Positions 28,919 through 39,582 of a DNA stretch of 64,000 bases are shown here, piece after piece. Each line of letters begins with the position of its first letter. The first letter of the stretch is position 1. The DNA comes from Geovibrio thiophilus (GTDB lineage: Bacteria; Chrysiogenota; Deferribacteres; Deferribacterales; Geovibrionaceae): assembly GCF_004087915.1 (NCBI RefSeq), contig NZ_CP035108.1, positions 992,001 through 1,056,000 on the forward strand, read 5' to 3'. The notes beneath the pieces are model-generated. The model worked only from the letters and a program-made list of their open reading frames with translations, was not told the DNA's origin and made no database searches. The translations under genes and the position numbers were made by a program.

Positions 28919-29028
28919 GCTGACAAAGAATCTGAGACTGCCGCGTATCAAAACAGTTTTTTTGCGCATTGCCGCCAGTGAGTTTTTGTTTCAACAAATA
29001 ATTCTTTGTCTGTTCTCTTCACTTTGAG

Positions 29029-29056
29029 TTGCTTATGCCGTGATATGCCTTATACT
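29029..29056 (+). promoter_or_regulatory. Sigma-70 promoter candidate for a small RNA
   Basis: TTGCTT (29029-29034) and TATACT (29051-29056), 16-nt spacing, in the 335-nt gap between the M23 gene and a minus-strand PAS gene. No open reading frame of normal size follows; structured sequence and a terminator do. Confidence 0.45.
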
Positions 29057-29062
29057 TTAATT

Positions 29063-29190
29063 ACAGACACGGTTATAAGCGGCGGCGCCGTTCAGAAAGA
29101 AACTTTAAAAAAAGATCATGCACGGCACAGGTTGCCGCCGCTTAAAGAATAGATGAAGCCGTTCCGGTATTGTGCCGGAGCGGCTTTTTA
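29063..29190 (+). ncRNA. Candidate structured small RNA with terminator
   Basis: Begins at the start point implied by the promoter at 29029-29056. An 11-bp G/C-rich stem (29076-29086 with 29134-29144) continues after a 7-nt bulge into a 5-bp stem (29087-29091 with 29122-29126) with a 30-nt A-rich loop. A 12-bp intrinsic terminator (29156-29167 with 29175-29186, one G-U pair, then Ts to 29189) ends it. Total is about 128 nt. It does not resemble 4.5S, 6S, tmRNA, RNase P or a riboswitch I know. Only a 12-codon frame without ribosome site (ATG at 29119) lies inside. Confidence 0.5.
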
Positions 29191-29194
29191 ATGA

Positions 29195-29554
29195 TCAGCT
29201 GCCGGATTTTGTGAACATTTCTTCTTTGGCGTATTCAGTTATGTCATTGCCGAAATGAATGAGGTAGTCTTCCCCCACCGGCAGCCAGAAGCCGTCATAG
29301 ACAATTCCTCTTTCTTCAATATAACAAACGTTTCTCACAGCCTTTCCCGAATTGAGAGCCGTCGCGGCTTTACAGTATTTCGCATGGGAAGCGGAATCGC
29401 CCAGACTGTGGCATTTGACGCCTGTAGGCATTCCGTACTGCTCACCCGCCTTATTAAGCGCCAGTATATCGTGCTTTCTGCTCAGAAGCATAACCGGGCT
29501 GGGGTACTCCGCCCATGTAAGCTTAAATGCTTCTATAACTTTTTCTTTGTCCAT
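29195..29554 (-). CDS. Small single-domain PAS-like protein
   Basis: 119 residues. PSPVMLLSRKHDILALNKAGEQYGMPTG and GFWLPVGEDYLIHFGNDITEYAKEE match the first and last strands of a PAS fold. The middle is Cys-rich for its size (CHSLG, YCKAAT, NVCYIEE) with a His nearby, which might bind a metal or heme, but no known motif is met. No output domain is attached, so it would act through a partner. GAGGAGG supports the start. Function not recognised. Confidence 0.6.
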   Translation of the reverse strand: MDKEKVIEAFKLTWAEYPSPVMLLSRKHDILALNKAGEQYGMPTGVKCHSLGDSASHAKYCKAATALNSGKAVRNVCYIEERGIVYDGFWLPVGEDYLIHFGNDITEYAKEEMFTKSGS

Positions 29555-29646
29555 AATCTGCCTCCTCTCTGTGTTTTATTATAATAATGATTCAGACTGA
29601 GGAATGCTTTTCAGATTTATATTGATTTGTAACAGAGTGTACTCTC

Positions 29647-30942
29647 TTACTGTTCAACCGGAAAATAAAGGCAGGCTTCCGTTTCTTTATGCAGAACGCT
29701 CTTGATCTCCAGCTTTCCGCCGTGTGCCTCGGCTATCTGTTTGCATATATCCAGTCCGATACCGTAGCCGCCTGTTTTTTTGCTTCTGGAGATGTCTGTC
29801 CTGTAAAATGGTTCGGTTATGAATTTAAGTTCATCTGCGGGTATGCCTATTCCTTTGTCTGTAACTTTTATGAAGGTGAATCCGTTCACGATGCCGCTTT
29901 CCACCGTAACAGGCTCACTGGATTCCTCAGAATATTTGAGAGCGTTGTCTATAAGGTTTCTGACGGCGTGCTCAATAGCTTTCGCGTCAATGTTCAGTTC
30001 AATGGGATAAGGGTGGGGAACAAAAACAACTCTTCCGGTTTTTTCTTCATAAGGGGCACATATTTCCCCTGTCAGTTTATTAATGTCGGTGTGTTTTTTC
30101 TTTAGTGCCCCGTGCTTTATCCTCGCTCCTTCCATAAGATAATTTATCAGCGTATCCATCTGTTTTATGTCGTCAGTCATGTCTTTACGCAGAAACTCAT
30201 CCTTTACCATTTCAGCGGCAATACGAAGACTTGTCAGAGGAGTGCGCAGCTCATGGCTTATACCTGTGAGCAGTTTGTTTTTATATTTGATTGAGCGGGA
30301 GATTTCCGATGTGAGAGAGTCAAACATATTGCAAAGGTGTGCCAGTTCATCGCTGCCGCACCTGTTAATTTTATAGTCATAGTTTTCCTTCTTAACCTCT
30401 GCTATGGCGGCGGAGAGATAGTTAATAGGCTTAAGGATCTGTCTTATCAGCATGTACACTGCCCCCATGAGCAGTGAGACGGCGCCGATCATGAACCAGC
30501 CGTACATGCTGAGGCGCTCCATCTCTCCGGTCAGAGGCCAGAACTTAAATTTTATGCTTGAATCACCCTCGGTAATTTCAGCGGTCTGATACCCGTGAAG
30601 TGTTCCCAGAGTGAGGTTTTCGTCTATTGTTCTGTAGTGCAGCTTATCCTCGGGGAATCTTCCTTCGGTTCTTCCGGTTGCCCAGCTCTCCTCGGGTGAT
30701 GAATAAATTACCGTTATGCCTGTTCTTTCGGACAGAGCTTCGGCTTTTCGTACATCAGGCGGATAGCCTATTTCGTCACGGAGAAACTGAATATAGATAA
30801 CTCTGTGTCTGTTGAGGCTTGTTTCCGAGTTTTCCACATAATGGGTAAAGATTCCGAATAGGATTATATTCAGCAGGACGGCGGAGCAGACAACAATGAA
30901 CAGAAGCTTGGTGAAAACCGAGCTGAGGAGCTTTTTAATCAT
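29647..30942 (-). CDS. Membrane sensor histidine kinase (CpxA/EnvZ-like)
   Basis: 431 residues. TM1 about 12-33 and TM2 about 147-168 enclose a small periplasmic region of about 110 residues. HAMP follows. The H-box is ISHELRTPLTSLRIAAEM; the N-box RNLIDNALKYSEE, G1 DKGIGIP and G2 GGYGIGLDI are intact. Its start overlaps the response regulator stop by 8 nt. Third gene of an operon: small membrane protein, regulator, kinase. The signal is unknown; the compact sensor suggests an envelope cue. Confidence 0.93.
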   Translation of the reverse strand: MIKKLLSSVFTKLLFIVVCSAVLLNIILFGIFTHYVENSETSLNRHRVIYIQFLRDEIGYPPDVRKAEALSERTGITVIYSSPEESWATGRTEGRFPEDKLHYRTIDENLTLGTLHGYQTAEITEGDSSIKFKFWPLTGEMERLSMYGWFMIGAVSLLMGAVYMLIRQILKPINYLSAAIAEVKKENYDYKINRCGSDELAHLCNMFDSLTSEISRSIKYKNKLLTGISHELRTPLTSLRIAAEMVKDEFLRKDMTDDIKQMDTLINYLMEGARIKHGALKKKHTDINKLTGEICAPYEEKTGRVVFVPHPYPIELNIDAKAIEHAVRNLIDNALKYSEESSEPVTVESGIVNGFTFIKVTDKGIGIPADELKFITEPFYRTDISRSKKTGGYGIGLDICKQIAEAHGGKLEIKSVLHKETEACLYFPVEQ

Positions 30943-31639
30943 TGCCGCGCTCTCCTATGAACATATAGCCCGTTCCCCATACTGTTTTTATGAACAGGGG
31001 CTCTTTTGGATCGTCTTTGAGCTTGTTTCGGAGACGGCTTACCGTGACATCCACCGTGCGGTTGAAGGCGTCACAGTCTATCCCTTTGAGTTCGTTGAGT
31101 ATTTTATCTCTGTCCAGCGTAACGAAGGGGTTTCTTACAAGAAGATGCAGAATACCGAATTCGCTTGTGGTCAGATCCAGCCTGACGCCGTCAAGCGTTG
31201 CGGTATATTTAGACGGCTCAACGATGAGTCTTCCGAAGCTGTACTGCGGCGGTTTTCTCTCTCCGGCAGGCATAGGTTCTCTCCGCTTTATCACCGCCTG
31301 AATCCTTGCCACCAGCTCTCTGGGTTCAAATGGCTTGGGCAGGTAATCATCAGCGCCTATCTCAAGTCCGACTATCCTGTCCTCGACTTCTCCCCGCGCG
31401 CTCAGCATTATTACCGGAATGTCGGAAAATTTACGTATGCGCTTGCAAACCTCAAAACCGTTTATTTTAGGCATCATTATATCCAGAATGACCAGCGCGG
31501 GGGAGCGTTCATCAAACTTTTCAAGAGCTTCTTCGGGATCATCGAAGGCATCAATGATGAACGAGTACTCAGAGAGATATTTTTTGAGCATTTTGATCAG
31601 CTTGAGATCATCATCGATGATCATTATTTTTGTCTGCAT
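30935..31639 (-). CDS. OmpR/PhoB-type response regulator
   Basis: 234 residues. Receiver domain with DDD near residue 9-11, phospho-acceptor Asp in LVILDIMMP (about 53) and Lys in LPKPFEP. A winged-helix DNA-binding domain follows with TVDVTVSRLRNKLKDD as recognition helix and TVWGTGYMF as the wing. AGAGGA precedes the ATG. Partner of the overlapping histidine kinase. Confidence 0.95.
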   Translation of the reverse strand: MQTKIMIIDDDLKLIKMLKKYLSEYSFIIDAFDDPEEALEKFDERSPALVILDIMMPKINGFEVCKRIRKFSDIPVIMLSARGEVEDRIVGLEIGADDYLPKPFEPRELVARIQAVIKRREPMPAGERKPPQYSFGRLIVEPSKYTATLDGVRLDLTTSEFGILHLLVRNPFVTLDRDKILNELKGIDCDAFNRTVDVTVSRLRNKLKDDPKEPLFIKTVWGTGYMFIGERGND

Positions 31640-31649
31640 ACAGTTCCTC

Positions 31650-31736
31650 TCAAAAAAAGACTGTGATTAACGCCCAAGTCATTACAACTATAAAAATGAC
31701 CGTAATACCGAACAAGAGAATATCGCCGAGCTTCAT
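31650..31736 (-). CDS. 28-residue single-span membrane protein
   Basis: Short frame starting ATG at 31736 with AGGAG five nt upstream, stop TGA at 31650-31652, ending 10 nt before the response regulator start. It begins MKLGDILLFGITVIF and continues with a hydrophobic run to a Phe-rich end, giving one membrane helix with a charged N-terminus (Lys2, Asp5). The good ribosome site, tight operon spacing and coherent membrane character argue for a real gene. It could modulate the kinase, as MgrB or SafA do for PhoQ, but there is no sequence similarity to either. Confidence 0.6.
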   Translation of the reverse strand: MKLGDILLFGITVIFIVVMTWALITVFF

Positions 31737-31793
31737 TGCTTACTCCTGTACATACTATAAATATAAACGCTAAAAACGGATTTCAGCAGAGAA

Positions 31794-31812
31794 ACAAATT
31801 GTAACAATTTGT
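31794..31812. promoter_or_regulatory. Perfect palindrome upstream of the two-component operon
   Basis: ACAAATTG (31794-31801), TAA, CAATTTGT (31805-31812), 58 bp upstream of the small membrane protein start. Fits an operator for a dimeric regulator; OmpR-type regulators usually use direct repeats, so a different protein may bind here. Confidence 0.5.
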
Positions 31813-31824
31813 ACAGGAGAAGCG

Positions 31825-31859
31825 AAAAAAGCCCCCGCCGAAGATATAACGGCAGGGGC
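31825..31859 (-). terminator. Rho-independent terminator after nfnB
   Basis: Arms 31850-31859 and 31831-31840 pair on the minus strand with one mismatch around a 9-nt loop and are followed by six Ts (31830-31825). Located just past the nfnB stop. Confidence 0.8.
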
Positions 31860-31867
31860 ACAGAGAT

Positions 31868-33355
31868 CTATTCTTCCGCAAGAAGCTTGTTTATGGCGGC
31901 TGCCGCGCGCCTGCCTTCGCCCATGGCAAGGATTACTGTTGCCGCGCCGAGTACAATATCTCCGCCGGCGTAAACTCTGTCCATGGACGTTTTGCCGTCT
32001 TCATCAACAGTGATGTTGCCCCATTTGTTTACGCCTATTTCCGGCGCCGTCTGGCTGATCAGCGGGTTTGAGGAGTTGCCCAGAGCCATGATCACCGAAT
32101 CCATCTCAAGGATGAACTCGCTCCCTTTAACAGCAACGGGCTTTCTCCTGCCGGAATCATCCGGCTCGCCGAGTTCGTATTTCAGGCACTCTATGCCTTT
32201 GACCTTGCCTGTTTCATCACCGAGGATGCGCACAGGGCTTGAGAGAAAGCTGAATATTATTCCCTCTTCCCGGGCGTGTACTATCTCCTCACGGCGGGCG
32301 GGCATCTCTTTCTCCGTGCGCCGGTAGATTACATAAACCTCTTCCGCGCCCACACGCAGAGCCATTCTGGCTGCGTCCATCGCCACGTTTCCGCCGCCGA
32401 TGACTGCTGTTCTCTTCCCTGTGAAAATAGGCGTGTCTGCCTTGTCGGGGTTGTATGCCTTCATCAGGTTTGCCCTTGTGAGAAATTCGTTCGCGGAGGA
32501 CACTCCCACAAGGTTCTCTCCCTCTATATTCATGAAATTCGGCAGTCCTGCGCCTGTTCCTATGAACAGAGCGTCAAAGCCGTCTTTCTCAATGAGGTCT
32601 TTTACCTTTCTTGTTCTGCCTACCAGAAAGTTCTTTTTGATCCGCACTCCCATGGAGAGCAGGTTTTCTATTTCCTTATCAAGAATTTCCTTTGGCAGGC
32701 GGAACTCAGGTATTCCGTATATCATAACTCCGCCAAGCTTGTGGAACGCCTCAAAAAGCACCACTTCGTGTCCGGACTTGCGCACGTCCGCCGCTGCGGT
32801 GAGCCCTGCGGGACCGGAGCCGACTATGCCGACCTTCTTTCCTGTGGCGGGGGCGATTTCGGGTATGGACATTTTGCCCTTTGCCCTTTCCCAGTCCGCA
32901 ACGAAGCGTTCAATGCGACCGATAGCTACGGATTTATCCATATCTTTCAATGATTTGCCCACGGTGCACTCAGCCATGCACTGTGTCTCCTGCGGGCAGA
33001 CCCTTCCGCATATGGCGGGCAGCATGCTTGATTTCTTTATGATGTTGACAGATTTCTGGTAATCACCCTCTGCCGCGGCTTTTATGAATCCGGGAATGTC
33101 GATGGCGACCGGACAGCCTTTGACGCAGGGGGCGTTTTTACATTGCAGACAGCGTTCAGCCTCAAGCTTAACCTGTTCCTCATAATAACCTATTGCCACT
33201 TCCTGAATATTTTTAGCACGGGCTTTAGGCTCCTGCGCGGGCATCTCCTGCATGGGGATTTTCAGCCTGTCCTTAGGCTTAAGGCTTGAGAAATCTATCT
33301 CTTTAACGAGGTTTTCGGCCTCTTTTTTTAATGTGTCAGCGGGAATATATGACAT
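31868..33355 (-). CDS. nfnB: NfnB: NAD(P)H-dependent ferredoxin oxidoreductase large subunit (GltD-like)
   Basis: 495 residues. N-terminal domain with two [4Fe-4S] sites (CLQCKNAPCVKGCPV near 80 and CGRVCPQETQC near 125). FAD-binding GSGPAGLTAAADV and NADPH-binding GGGNVAMDAARMA follow. The fold is shared with the glutamate synthase small subunit, but no large subunit is near and the partner is a PyrK-like protein, so this is the NfnAB (also SudAB) pair. NfnAB couples NADH and NADPH to ferredoxin by flavin-based bifurcation. The start MSYIPADT is set by GGAGG; the frame opens 8 codons earlier. It follows nfnA by 4 nt. Confidence 0.9.
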   Translation of the reverse strand: MSYIPADTLKKEAENLVKEIDFSSLKPKDRLKIPMQEMPAQEPKARAKNIQEVAIGYYEEQVKLEAERCLQCKNAPCVKGCPVAIDIPGFIKAAAEGDYQKSVNIIKKSSMLPAICGRVCPQETQCMAECTVGKSLKDMDKSVAIGRIERFVADWERAKGKMSIPEIAPATGKKVGIVGSGPAGLTAAADVRKSGHEVVLFEAFHKLGGVMIYGIPEFRLPKEILDKEIENLLSMGVRIKKNFLVGRTRKVKDLIEKDGFDALFIGTGAGLPNFMNIEGENLVGVSSANEFLTRANLMKAYNPDKADTPIFTGKRTAVIGGGNVAMDAARMALRVGAEEVYVIYRRTEKEMPARREEIVHAREEGIIFSFLSSPVRILGDETGKVKGIECLKYELGEPDDSGRRKPVAVKGSEFILEMDSVIMALGNSSNPLISQTAPEIGVNKWGNITVDEDGKTSMDRVYAGGDIVLGAATVILAMGEGRRAAAAINKLLAEE

Positions 33356-33359
33356 GGCA

Positions 33360-34208
33360 TTACCTCCGGAGTTCGTCAATGGCAGCCTGAAGGCGGCATG
33401 CGTGGTTGGCGTCCTGTTCCTGCGGCTTGTAGGAGCGCAGGCGCAGCATCATATTGTCGAAATCCACCAGATGAGCGTCAAACTCCGGTCCGTCCACACA
33501 GACGAACTTGGTTTCGCCGCCGACTGTTACCCTGCATCCGCCGCACATGCCTGTTCCGTCAACCATGATTGTGTTGAGGGAGGCATATGTCTTCACTCCG
33601 AAGGGGCGTGTGGTTTCGGCGCAGAACTTCATCATTATCGCCGGACCTATGGCAACGGCGAGGTCAACGCCGCCCTTTTCGCATATCTCTCTGAGAGGCT
33701 CGGTCACAAGGCATTTACGACCGTATGAGCCGTCATCCGTGCAGACTATCAGTTCATCCGCAATGGCGCGCATCTCGTCTTCAAGAATAAGAAGCTCCTT
33801 GTTTCTGGCGCCTATTATGGTGATTACCCTGTTGCCTGCCTTCTTCATAGCCTGAGCTATGGGGTGAAGCGGCGCAACACCTATGCCGCCGCCGACACAG
33901 ACCACTGTACCGACCTTTTCTATGTGTGTGGGCTTGCCGAGAGGTCCCAGCAGGTTTTCCACATGATCGCCGACATTTTTCTGCGCCAGTTTCAGAGTGG
34001 ACTTGCCCACTATCTGGAATATTATGGTAATACTGCCCTTTTCCGCATCAGCGTCAGCAATTGTGAGCGGTATGCGCTCGCTGAAATCGGAATCGACCTG
34101 AATTATGATAAACTGTCCCGCCCGCCGCTCAAGAGCTATTTCCGGTGCGAGAAGCTTCATCTGCACCACGTCTCTTGAGAGCAGCTTTTTATCTAAAATT
34201 TTACTCAT
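33360..34208 (-). CDS. nfnA: NfnA: ferredoxin-NADP reductase small subunit (PyrK-like)
   Basis: 282 residues. FAD domain with RIPLTIADAD, NAD-binding VVCVGGGIGVAPLHPIA, and a C-terminal [2Fe-2S] site built from DGTGMCGGCRVTV plus a later CVDG. Matches NfnA/SudB and dihydroorotate dehydrogenase electron-transfer subunits; the pairing with the adjacent large subunit identifies it. First gene of the operon. It marks the right edge of ordinary chromosomal content before the accessory region. Confidence 0.9.
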   Translation of the reverse strand: MSKILDKKLLSRDVVQMKLLAPEIALERRAGQFIIIQVDSDFSERIPLTIADADAEKGSITIIFQIVGKSTLKLAQKNVGDHVENLLGPLGKPTHIEKVGTVVCVGGGIGVAPLHPIAQAMKKAGNRVITIIGARNKELLILEDEMRAIADELIVCTDDGSYGRKCLVTEPLREICEKGGVDLAVAIGPAIMMKFCAETTRPFGVKTYASLNTIMVDGTGMCGGCRVTVGGETKFVCVDGPEFDAHLVDFDNMMLRLRSYKPQEQDANHACRLQAAIDELRR

Positions 34209-34767: not shown

Positions 34768-35333
34768 AGTTCTTAAAGCAATTTATTCAATTCATTCTAG
34801 GATTGATATTCCTTGGGTTGATTATTTGGGGTGCAGTTGCTCTTACTGATTGGTTTTTTAACTTAGATATTGATAAAGAGTTTAAATTGACATTTATAAG
34901 TGCAACTTCAGCGTTGTTCATGTTTATATGGTCAAATTATTTGAATAAAAAACGTGAGATTGAAGCACGTTTGTTTGAAAAAAAAGCAGAGGCATATTCT
35001 AGAATATTTGAAAAAATATTAGATGGTCTAACTATTCCCGGTTACAAGCTTGTTCTTGCAGATGTATATGATATACAAAAAGACATTCTCGTGTGGGGCA
35101 ATGCAGAAATGATCAAGTTTTGGAACAAGTTTACTGACCTTGACTTTGATAATCTCCAAATGAGCGAGAAAAAAATGAAAGATTTTTTCAATAGTTATGA
35201 AACTTTATTAAAAATTATGAGAAAAGATTTAGGGCATAATGACTCTGAACTTAAGCATGGAGATGTTATAAAGTTTTTTCTTGATAAAAAAGGGAAAGAA
35301 GATTTTGATGATCTTTTTAGGAGCAAAAGCTAA
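34764..35333 (+). CDS. Two-span membrane protein in the cassette accessory slot
   Basis: 189 residues from ATG 34764 (an ATG at 34752 is also in frame). Two hydrophobic spans (about residues 5-30 and 45-62) are followed by a long charged helical domain of about 125 residues (KKREIEARLFEKKAEAYSR). No catalytic motif seen. It occupies the place held by the KAP NTPase in the right cassette, directly before the methyltransferase, and overlaps that gene by 1 nt. A membrane-linked effector or regulator of the restriction cassette is an inference from position only. Base composition is AT-rich. Confidence 0.65.
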   Translation: MKFLKQFIQFILGLIFLGLIIWGAVALTDWFFNLDIDKEFKLTFISATSALFMFIWSNYLNKKREIEARLFEKKAEAYSRIFEKILDGLTIPGYKLVLADVYDIQKDILVWGNAEMIKFWNKFTDLDFDNLQMSEKKMKDFFNSYETLLKIMRKDLGHNDSELKHGDVIKFFLDKKGKEDFDDLFRSKS

Positions 35334-36904
35334 TGTCAAAAAAGCAGAGATTGGAGCTGATGTGGATCGGGAAGGGGGAAAAGGATAATCCTCGACTTGA
35401 GCCACGGATACTTATTGAAGACCCTGAAAGATCATATGGGGATAAAGACACAGAGAATATTTTGATTCATGGTGACAACCTGCTTGCGTTAAAAGCGTTG
35501 GAACAGGATTACGCAGGAAAGGTTAAATGTATTTATATAGATCCGCCTTATAACACCGGTAACGCTTTTGAGCATTATGATGATGGACTTGAACATTCAG
35601 AATGGCTCAACTTGATGAGTATAAGATTAAGGTTATTGTATAAACTGTTATCAACGGATGGAGTACTATTTATCAATATTGATGAAATAGAACATGCCTA
35701 TCTGAAAGTTCTTTTAGATGAGATTTTCGGAAGAAAGAATTTTATTGGTGATTTGATATGGAAAAAACGTAAAGGAGGCGGAAACGACTCAAGATTCATC
35801 GCATTAGATCATGATTATATATTAGTTTATGTGAAATGTAGTGATAAAGAAATCCACAAGAAAAAATGGCGTGTTTCTTATGAAATTGAGTATTTACAGC
35901 GATACAAAGAAGTCGATGACACTGGCAGATATTACTGGGATACTTTGGCACGAGATGGACTTCAAAACCCAATTAAAATTGTGATAAAATGCCCTGATGG
36001 TTCTGTACTTAATATAAATTCTCAGAAATCAAAGGAAACGATACTTGGCGGTATAAAAGCTGGTACAATCCGATTGACACAAGTAAAAGGCAAGTGGACA
36101 TTACACCATAAAGTTTATATGCCAGAAGGGAAAGTTCTTCGCTCTATTCTTGATGACCATGGAACGAATAAAATCGCAGGAGATGAACTCAGAGTACTTT
36201 TCAGAGACAATGACTTTGATTATCCAAAACCAGAAAAACTCATTCAAACTTTATTAGAGCTTAATACTAAGCATGGTGACATCGTTCTTGACTCCTTTCT
36301 CGGTTCCGGCACAACTGCTGCTGTTGCCCACAAAATGGGGCGTAATTGGATTGGCGTTGAGCTTGGGGAACATTGCAATACGCACTGTGTGCCACGCCTG
36401 CAAAAAGTTATAGACGGAACAGACCAAGGCGGAATATCAAAAGCTGTGGACTGGCAGGGCGGCGGCGGTTTCCGTTATTATACTCTTGCGCCAAGTCTTC
36501 TGAAAAAAGACTCCAATGACCGTTGGGTTATATCCGAAGAATACAACGCTGAACAGCTTGCCGCAGCAATGGCAAAGCAGGAAGGGTTTAAGTATTATCC
36601 CGATGAAACAGTATACTGGAAGCAGGGTTATTCAACAGAAACTGACTTTATCTACACTACAACACAGTTTCTCACAGTGGATATTATAGACAAGATACAT
36701 GAAGAAATGAAACCCGAAGAAAGTCTGCTTATCACTTGCAAAGCATTTCAGGATGCTTGTGTGAAAAGGCATTCAAACATAACCGTCAAAAAAATTCCGC
36801 ATGTTCTTCTTGGTAGGTGCGAATTCGGAAAAGATGATTACAGTCTGAACATTATCAACGTTCCTGTGGTTGATTCCGAAGACGAAGAAGAGGAGGACTG
36901 CTGA
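35333..36904 (+). CDS. Type III-like DNA methyltransferase (Mod), left copy
   Basis: 523 residues. Amino-methyltransferase of the beta class: the catalytic DPPY motif (70-73) comes before the AdoMet motif DSFLGSGTT (about 318-327), with a target-recognition region between. A C-terminal domain of about 200 residues follows. The first 75 and last 200 or so residues are almost identical to the copy at 51566, whereas residues about 77-310 differ fully (KRKGGGNDSRFIALDHDYIL here). It should therefore methylate a different site. Overlaps the 2-TM gene and res by 1 nt each. Confidence 0.93.
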   Translation: MSKKQRLELMWIGKGEKDNPRLEPRILIEDPERSYGDKDTENILIHGDNLLALKALEQDYAGKVKCIYIDPPYNTGNAFEHYDDGLEHSEWLNLMSIRLRLLYKLLSTDGVLFINIDEIEHAYLKVLLDEIFGRKNFIGDLIWKKRKGGGNDSRFIALDHDYILVYVKCSDKEIHKKKWRVSYEIEYLQRYKEVDDTGRYYWDTLARDGLQNPIKIVIKCPDGSVLNINSQKSKETILGGIKAGTIRLTQVKGKWTLHHKVYMPEGKVLRSILDDHGTNKIAGDELRVLFRDNDFDYPKPEKLIQTLLELNTKHGDIVLDSFLGSGTTAAVAHKMGRNWIGVELGEHCNTHCVPRLQKVIDGTDQGGISKAVDWQGGGGFRYYTLAPSLLKKDSNDRWVISEEYNAEQLAAAMAKQEGFKYYPDETVYWKQGYSTETDFIYTTTQFLTVDIIDKIHEEMKPEESLLITCKAFQDACVKRHSNITVKKIPHVLLGRCEFGKDDYSLNIINVPVVDSEDEEEEDC

Positions 36905-39582
36905 TGAATCAGACGGCTAATATCATTAAAAACCGCCTAAGCCTTCGCCCTCCGCAGGAAGAGAGCCTTAATATTCTTGCTCAACTGGCAGATATTCTCA
37001 CACTTAGAAAAGATGCCGATTTGACCGCAGAATTGGAAAAAGTCAGAGAACTGTACCCAACCTGCACTGATTTTGAACGGAATTTCCCTTCACTCTGCTT
37101 CTCCCTTGCAACAGGCGTGGGGAAAACAAGGCTTATGGGAGCTTTTGTAACGTATCTTTTTCAGAAAAAAGGGATAACAAATTTCTTTATTCTTGCTCCT
37201 AACCTTACTGTTTATAACAAGCTGATTGATGATTTCTCCAATACGCATAGCCCGAAATATGTATTCAGAGGCATAGCCGATTTCGCCGTAAGGCAGCCCA
37301 AAATCATTACTGCTGACAACTATACATGGGAATTTTCTGCTATTGAAAGAGCGAGAGAAGAAGGCGAAGTTTGCATTAACTTCTTTAATATTTCTAAAAT
37401 AAACGCAGAAACAAGAAAAGGGCAGCAACCGCAAATCAAAAGACTTTGGGAATACATAGGCGATTCATATTTCAACTATCTTACCAATCTTGAAGATCTT
37501 GTTCTTATTATGGATGAATCCCATCATTATCGTGCGGATAGAGGCATGACGGTTCTTAATGAACTTAACCCGATCTTGGGTCTGGAAGTTACCGCAACTC
37601 CGCAGGTAGAAAAGAGCGGACGAACCATTAAGTTTAAAAATGTTGTTTATGAATACTCACTGGCAAAAGCGATCAGGGATGGTTTTGTCAAAGAACCTGC
37701 TGTTGCCACAAGGGAAGATTTTGATCCTGACAGATACAGCAACAATCTTCTGGAGCTTGACCAAATTAAGCTTGAAGATGGAATCAGGCTGCATGAAAAA
37801 ACAAAAGTCGAGCTTGATATATACGCCAGAGATAACAAAAAAGAGCATGTTAAACCTTTTGTCCTTGTTGTTGCTAAGGACACTCAACATGCAGCACAGT
37901 TGAAGGAGATTATATGTTCTCCCGGTTTCTTTGACGGTTACTATACCGATAAGGTAATGGAGATTCACTCCAATCAGACAGGAACAGAAAAAGAAGAGAA
38001 TATTCAAAACCTTATTTCGGTTGAAGATCCTGACAACCCTATTGAGATAGTTATTCATGTCAATATGCTGAAAGAAGGCTGGGACGTAACCAATCTTTAT
38101 ACAATAGTTCCGCTCCGTACCGCCGCTTCAACTACTCTTCGAGAGCAGACAATAGGACGTGGGCTGCGTTTGCCTTACGGCAGGAAAACAGGCAACTCTT
38201 CCGTTGATAAGCTCACAATCATGGTACATGATAAATTTCAGGAGATTGTTGATGCAGCAAATAAGCCGGATTCGATAATCAGACTTGAGAATATTATTAC
38301 TATCGATCCTGATGAACTGGAAAAACAACGACCGGAAGTGGCAGTTTCTCTTTCAAATATTGAGAAAGCTGTCCAAGAAAAAAGAGCAGAGATAGCCACT
38401 ATTTCTGACGAAACAGTCAGGCAAAAAGAAGAAGTCAGACTGGAAGTCAGAGAAAAAATACTTAGCTACATGCCCAAAATGGGTAAAGAAGTTACTTCTG
38501 TTTCTGAATTAAAAAAGCCGGAAGTTAAAAAGTCCATTATTGAAAGAATACGCAGAGAAGCTGATGAATCCCCTCAATACAGACTGTTTGTTGAAGAAGA
38601 GATCAAGGAAGTTGAACAGGCTTATGATGATACTATAGAATATTTCTCTGCAAATATTATAGAAATTCCACGCATTATGCTTCAACAGGGAAGTGCTGAC
38701 TTCGGATTCCATGATTTTGATCTTGATGTTGCCCCATTCAATTATCAGCCTGTATCTGAAGACCTGCTTATTCAGGCTTTGCAATCAAATACCAGAGAGA
38801 TTGTTACTGCGGAACGCAGGATAAGACACGAAAAACCTGAAGATATAATAATTAACGAACTTGTGAACTTCGGGGAAGTCGACTATGATTCTCAATCAGA
38901 TTTATTATACAAGCTGGTTTGTCAGTTGATTGAGCATTTCAAATCATATCTTAATGATGAAGATGTTTTAAATGTTGTTCGCTATCACAAAATGCAGATC
39001 GGAAGGGCAATCTACAGCCAGATGATGGAACATTTTTATCTTGTTTCCACTGAGTATGAAAAGCCACAGGTTCACTCATTTACTGTGATACATCCCCATA
39101 ACTATATAAAGCTGAAGCATGACAAGATTTACTATTTTACTGAAACAATTGAACCCGCAAGGTCTATTCCGTCTAAAATATTTACAGGATTTAAGAAGTC
39201 ATGCCATTCTGAATATAAGTTTGATTCCAAAACAGAGAAAGACTTTGCAATCATTCTGGAAAGTGATAATGCTGTGCAAAAATGGTTAAGACCTGCTAAA
39301 GAACAGTTCCATATCTACTGGAAACACAACTCAAAACGTTATGAACCCGATTTTATTGTTGAAACTGCCGATGGTCTTTATATGGTTGAAACAAAAAAAG
39401 AAGCAGACGTTGATACTGATGATGTGCAGGAAAAGAAAAATGCGGCACTCGTGTATTGCAAACATGCAACAGACTTTACAACTGCAAACGGCGGTAAACC
39501 GTGGCACTATCTTCTTATCCCACACGATGTTGTTAAACCAAATATGACTTTTGCAAGATTCGCAACTGAGTTTAAACAATAA
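36904..39582 (+). CDS. Type III-like restriction subunit (Res), left copy
   Basis: 892 residues. SF2 helicase core with Walker A LATGVGKTRLMGAF (about 68-80), DEAD-like box LIMDESHHYRADRG, motif III VTATPQ and motif VI EQTIGRGLRLPYG. A C-terminal PD-(D/E)xK nuclease shows YEPDFIV and MVETKKE, so Asp, Glu and Lys are present. Translocates on DNA and cuts when two unmethylated sites meet, in type III fashion. About 25-30 residue differences from the copy at 53158. Starts at the mod stop (TGATG). Confidence 0.93.
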   Translation: MNQTANIIKNRLSLRPPQEESLNILAQLADILTLRKDADLTAELEKVRELYPTCTDFERNFPSLCFSLATGVGKTRLMGAFVTYLFQKKGITNFFILAPNLTVYNKLIDDFSNTHSPKYVFRGIADFAVRQPKIITADNYTWEFSAIERAREEGEVCINFFNISKINAETRKGQQPQIKRLWEYIGDSYFNYLTNLEDLVLIMDESHHYRADRGMTVLNELNPILGLEVTATPQVEKSGRTIKFKNVVYEYSLAKAIRDGFVKEPAVATREDFDPDRYSNNLLELDQIKLEDGIRLHEKTKVELDIYARDNKKEHVKPFVLVVAKDTQHAAQLKEIICSPGFFDGYYTDKVMEIHSNQTGTEKEENIQNLISVEDPDNPIEIVIHVNMLKEGWDVTNLYTIVPLRTAASTTLREQTIGRGLRLPYGRKTGNSSVDKLTIMVHDKFQEIVDAANKPDSIIRLENIITIDPDELEKQRPEVAVSLSNIEKAVQEKRAEIATISDETVRQKEEVRLEVREKILSYMPKMGKEVTSVSELKKPEVKKSIIERIRREADESPQYRLFVEEEIKEVEQAYDDTIEYFSANIIEIPRIMLQQGSADFGFHDFDLDVAPFNYQPVSEDLLIQALQSNTREIVTAERRIRHEKPEDIIINELVNFGEVDYDSQSDLLYKLVCQLIEHFKSYLNDEDVLNVVRYHKMQIGRAIYSQMMEHFYLVSTEYEKPQVHSFTVIHPHNYIKLKHDKIYYFTETIEPARSIPSKIFTGFKKSCHSEYKFDSKTEKDFAIILESDNAVQKWLRPAKEQFHIYWKHNSKRYEPDFIVETADGLYMVETKKEADVDTDDVQEKKNAALVYCKHATDFTTANGGKPWHYLLIPHDVVKPNMTFARFATEFKQ

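Follow-up and report, generated by a model that had tools for sequence, protein, structure and literature searches.

A conserved 28-residue single-helix membrane protein encoded next to an OmpR-type response regulator in Geovibrio thiophilus, a possible modulator of the co-encoded sensor kinase

Most known small kinase modulators stem from enterobacteria, and genes as short as 28 codons are usually skipped by annotation. MgrB, a protein of 47 aa, is a feedback inhibitor of PhoQ, and KdpF, a single-helix peptide of about 30 aa from the kdpFABC operon, heads an operon for a transporter. Binding to sensor kinases through the membrane defines an established class of small single-helix proteins, to which MgrB belongs (PMC2789325, PMC8534201). 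Expression of mgrB is controlled by PhoP (PMC2789325), and SafA, UgtL and MzrA are small membrane connectors of OmpR-type systems that act on PhoQ or EnvZ (PMC8534201). For KdpF, interaction with KdpD has been found in two-hybrid experiments (PMC3618439).

We analyzed a stretch of 64,000 nucleotides from the genome of Geovibrio thiophilus (contig NZ_CP035108.1, positions 992,001 to 1,056,000), referred to as the window. On its minus strand, the reading from 31736 to 31650 consists of an ATG, 28 codons and a TGA (MKLGDILLFGITVIFIVVMTWALITVFF), and sequence and conservation point to an ORF for a small membrane protein of 28 aa at 31650..31736. The plus-strand reading of the same interval was ruled out by an internal stop. 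An AGGAG ribosome-binding site (31743..31747, minus strand) is read directly 6 nt from the ATG, both congeners feature AGGAGG as the corresponding ribosome site, and an in-frame stop immediately 5' of the ATG renders a longer start impossible. Ten nucleotides separate the TGA from the ATG of the response regulator gene at 31639. The product yields a top 18-residue Kyte-Doolittle mean of 2.70, indicating a clear single transmembrane helix. The preliminary description of this ORF had pointed at precisely these three properties, a good ribosome site, a membrane helix in a product of 28 residues and a 10-nt spacing to the regulator gene, and all three hold. A single transmembrane helix and a size below about 70 aa, by which small kinase modulators are recognized, are thus both present; the protein has neither a soluble domain nor a cysteine, and its N-terminus is probably cytoplasmic. 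Searches of Pfam, NCBIfam, PHROGs and PDB returned no usable match. Assignment to the MgrB family was rejected (no Pfam/NCBIfam match, no sequence relation, no cysteine pair), as were assignment to the KdpF family (no Pfam/NCBIfam match at usable significance, no kdpABC linkage) and identity with a CpxP/Spy accessory protein, given a length of 28 aa without the exported LTXXQ/Metal_resist domain. We located no prior report of the gene in the open-access literature, which is a weak negative.

The genes that follow on the minus strand encode an OmpR-family response regulator of 234 aa (30935..31639; PF00072, PF00486) and, overlapping it by 8 nt, a membrane sensor histidine kinase of 431 aa (29647..30942). 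Pfam detects Response_reg and Trans_reg_C in the regulator and HisKA and HATPase_c in the kinase, the latter with a HAMP domain below the cutoff; this is the domain set that defines two-component systems of the OmpR/PhoB family. The kinase is EnvZ/ArsS-like, and its C-terminal half is closest to EnvZ. It matches the ArsS family over its full length (residues 7-412) with 132 bits, below the NCBIfam cutoff of 250 bits, and membership in ArsRS was therefore rejected. A single-domain PAS protein of 119 aa (29195..29554, minus strand), recognized by conservation and its predicted fold, completes the set. In the genus of the window the gene order is small gene-RR-HK-PAS. In Seleniivibrio and in G005, which we take to be Denitrovibrio acetiphilus, the order is HK-PAS-small gene-RR, such that the adjacency of small gene and regulator gene is maintained despite a permuted operon. 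The earlier proposal that the small gene heads a two-component operon is hence true of the genus of the window only; in the Seleniivibrio and Denitrovibrio-type genomes the gene is internal. In congener G001 (L032 7270-7600) no PAS gene follows the kinase gene, and none was found in the rest of the genome. Elsewhere in the window, two neighbouring ORFs (523 and 892 aa; 35333-39582, plus strand) resemble Mod and Res, the two parts of a Type III restriction-modification pair, as judged solely from reading the translations.

Comparison of the window species with its congeners G001 and G002 makes it virtually certain that the small ORF is a real protein-coding gene. The frame is free of indels and stops in all three species, while the spacer 3' of it differs (10-12 nt). 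Nei-Gojobori pS values are 0.59, 0.81 and 0.89 and pN values 0.12, 0.20 and 0.20, i.e., synonymous differences are close to saturation and replacements are few, similar in kind to the response regulator in the same trio (pS 0.62-0.70, pN 0.09-0.13). Variable columns of the alignment fall on codon positions 1, 2 and 3 in 7, 8 and 19 cases, respectively. When the alignment columns were shuffled, the observed amino-acid conservation was matched in none of 20,000 trials, with 24 amino-acid differences observed vs. a shuffle mean of 46. Identities to the two congeners amount to 79 and 64% for the small protein, 82 and 60% for the kinase and 85 and 81% for the response regulator, so that the small protein diverges at a kinase-like pace.

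The response regulator was searched in 40 relatives. Its orthologues share 57-85% identity and are clearly separated from the next level at about 40%. Apart from the window, they occur in the two congeners, in four members of the sister genus (G004, the Seleniivibrio woodruffii MAG G006, the Seleniivibrio sp. MAG G010 and UBA6793, G011) and twice in G005, and thus nine were found in the phylum, from eight species and three genera. All nine are directly preceded by an ORF of 28-33 aa with a single helix (hydrophobicity 2.67-2.97), which either ends 7-12 nt before the regulator gene or overlaps its start by 19-20 nt. Among 20 other response regulator loci, which served as background, only one has a borderline candidate (hydrophobicity 1.62). 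In three Seleniivibrio genomes (L033-L035) the small ORF extends 19-20 nt into the regulator gene and thereby carries a fixed tail, CRTGY/F, that is set by the start of the regulator; one of the three overlapping ORFs starts with GTG. When a family profile was run against 51 genomes of the phylum, the nine regulator loci alone gave strong matches (E 3e-11 or better). Since these loci supplied the profile sequences, their matches are partly by construction, and it is the lack of strong matches at other loci that is informative; the next match (E 0.009) lies inside a long frame. Similarity between the genera is weak but present: a profile built without the genus of the window ranked the small ORF first among 1756 frames of the window, weakly (E 0.18), and a profile of that genus finds the small ORF of G010 at E 2e-5 among 1920 frames. 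The suggestion of a hidden gene has therefore stood up to the comparison with relatives that was proposed along with it: neither congener has a stop or an indel in the frame, which is under purifying selection there, and the ORF recurs before the orthologous regulators of two further genera. Judged by sequence, the small protein may constitute a new family within a known class, specific to one bacterial family.

A conserved element with two half-sites 10 bp apart, TACAAwyTGTTACAATT, lies upstream of the small ORF (31797..31813, minus strand; TACAAATTGTTACAATT) and, by its sequence pattern, is a likely operator for the response regulator. Both layouts have it where the operon begins: it directly precedes the small gene in the genus of the window and the kinase gene in the other arrangement. 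A second, weaker operator-like site with two mismatches precedes the PAS gene (29625..29641, minus strand), and a weaker copy is present at the same place in copy 2 of G005. The window contains three matches where 0.02 are expected; two of the three come from one near-palindromic site, counted once per strand. The position of the element ahead of the operon in either layout, together with the repeat before the PAS gene, suggests that the response regulator autoregulates the operon through this element. When 12 genomes were searched for the pattern with up to two mismatches, matches outside the locus remained at or below the level of a reversed-pattern control, and no further targets of the regulator can thus be named. 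A possible -10 region (TATATTTATAGT; 31754..31765, minus strand) was picked by eye and is absent from the results of a scan for sigma-70 consensus sequences, in which promoter-like sites occurred at chance level; the AT-rich block at this position is present in all three congeners. Between the operon and the convergent-order upstream glutamate synthase-like gene (31868-33379) lies a terminator-like hairpin (31835..31852, minus strand), weak on its own, in a setting of six terminator-like sites found vs. 3.1 expected overall. A leader RNA or riboswitch was rejected after a search of 29000-32000 against Rfam yielded no hit at E values up to 1. An inverted repeat seen by eye, formed by the ribosome site TGTACAGGAG and the upstream sequence CTCCTGTACA, was dropped because neither congener has it and because one of its arms, the upstream one, overlaps the operator region.

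The PAS protein consists of a lone PAS domain (AlphaFold pLDDT 89.5) with invariant C48, H57 and C61 and an HFGNDIT motif. It belongs to no Pfam or NCBIfam family, and its PDB matches include the PAS domains of a halophile HTR-like protein, NifL, FixL and Dos. It resembles a soluble partner that senses redox state, a metal or a cofactor for the system, and it is a more promising guide than the small ORF to the signal that the system senses. Relatives are present in 28 of 141 genomes from the order of Geomonas and in G042, a distant member of the phylum. The response regulator profile finds its best match, in Geomonas as well as in a Desulfuromonadaceae MAG and in G042, in the very regulator that adjoins the PAS gene. 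CpxP/Spy-like exported proteins of 140-155 aa with weak Metal_resist and LTXXQ matches are encoded in these PAS clusters (in five of 30 PAS loci by profile, plus G042). This pairing of PAS and CpxP/Spy-like genes (L071 3200-4400, L072 3300-4400 and L046 1000-2582 in Geomonas, the Desulfuromonadaceae MAG and G042) suggests a role in envelope or metal stress. The small ORF has no match in the PAS clusters of the order of Geomonas or of G042. As the related clusters contain a CpxP/Spy-like protein and lack the small ORF, the small protein would be an addition or a replacement that arose in one bacterial family.

As a whole, these observations are in our view best explained, with moderate confidence, by an autoregulated, lineage-specific membrane modulator of the co-encoded kinase, which would operate along the lines of MgrB or SafA without being related to either. 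The small ORF would be translated into a small single-pass inner-membrane protein, and the response regulator would bind the TACAAwyTGTTACAATT element before the operon. With the system switched on, the levels of the small protein and the regulator, and in the genus of the window also those of the kinase, would rise together. The helix of the small protein would then pack against the transmembrane helices of the kinase, and this contact may set the balance between kinase and phosphatase activity. As to the sign of the effect, we tentatively favour a feedback inhibitor or set-point modulator. The kinase is the most economical target for such a contact, because it is the sole conserved membrane protein of the unit, and the small protein probably belongs to the sensor as a minor accessory component. 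What speaks for modulation of the kinase is strict linkage, the common likely operator, the kinase-like rate of divergence and the analogy to MgrB and SafA. Two findings count against it: the small gene is linked more tightly to the regulator gene than to the kinase gene, and in copy 1 of G005 the small ORF and the regulator are intact although the kinase is broken. In that copy (L037 782-4602), an insertion of about 2.5 kb with an IS21-type transposase splits the kinase gene and leaves the small ORF, PAS and regulator genes all intact; the insertion may be recent.

Other readings have to be weighed against this one. That the ORF is spurious and has no product is hardly credible: short ORFs are common, and 3% of the column shuffles leave the frame open in each of the three species, yet the excess of pS over pN, the linkage to the regulator, the shuffling result, the profile matches limited to nine loci and the matches across genera speak against it, and codon-level conservation refutes it to a high degree. 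The gap of 7-12 nt or overlap of 19-20 nt with the regulator start, which is a property of every member, would also fit a cis-acting leader cistron whose translation couples and sets that of the regulator and whose peptide has no target. For such a leader an open frame suffices and a conserved hydrophobic helix is superfluous; strongly depressed replacements and hydrophobicity maintained across genera, along with the missing Rfam match in the region, make this improbable.

It is conceivable, though still rather unlikely, that the protein is real and that its partner in the same stress response is a membrane target other than the kinase, e.g., a transporter, a protease or the membrane as such, with the gene carried as a co-regulated passenger in the manner of KdpF for KdpABC. 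Small single-helix proteins are often subunits of other complexes; KdpF bound not only KdpD but also other membrane proteins in two-hybrid experiments, and kdp regulation was not clearly affected (PMC3618439). The persistence of the small ORF beside the broken kinase gene in G005 would be in line with this. On the other hand, the neighbourhood contains no further membrane protein gene that is conserved between genera, and the small ORF occurs only with orthologues of the regulator of the present system. It is very improbable, finally, that the small protein is what remains of, or a degenerate substitute for, the membrane-anchored CpxP/Spy-like accessory protein of Desulfuromonadales and G042 and retains its role at the kinase. 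The best regulator match and the shared PAS protein identify the same two-component system there, and the related cluster has the CpxP-like gene where it lacks the small ORF; no sequence homology between the two proteins was shown, however, and the CpxP-like gene is absent from some Desulfuromonadales clusters. Such descent would be compatible with a kinase modulator and would describe its evolutionary origin. An extended version, in which the 28-33-aa one-helix family is an obligate component, the third or fourth, of a PAS-RR-HK system in one bacterial family and the bare helix took the place of a soluble periplasmic CpxP/Spy-like modulator, appears doubtful.

The locus provides a case from the Deferribacterota with unusually clean comparative evidence, i.e., the same neighbour at nine loci, retained through rearrangement, and protein-level selection on 28 codons. 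If modulation of the kinase holds true, it would offer a minimal one-helix model of sensor tuning by nothing more than a transmembrane helix. With respect to described systems, the small protein resembles KdpF in size, in its single helix and in being operon-encoded, and differs in that its operon lacks a transporter. It shares with CpxP/Spy proteins the accessory slot adjoining a related PAS-RR-HK cluster (Desulfuromonadales, G042), whereas those are exported proteins of 140-155 aa and the small protein is one helix. Like SafA, UgtL and MzrA it is a membrane protein that would be accessory to an OmpR-type system; these, in contrast, are induced by a different two-component system or use a periplasmic part, which the operon-encoded small protein does not possess. 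As in the case of MgrB, the protein is small, spans the membrane once and is linked to a single two-component system, and the likely operator implies that expression of the small gene may be under its own response regulator just as mgrB is under PhoP. The present protein differs from MgrB in its 28 aa and in lacking a periplasmic domain and MgrB-type cysteines, and its gene resides inside the operon of the two-component system, whereas mgrB is located elsewhere in the regulon.
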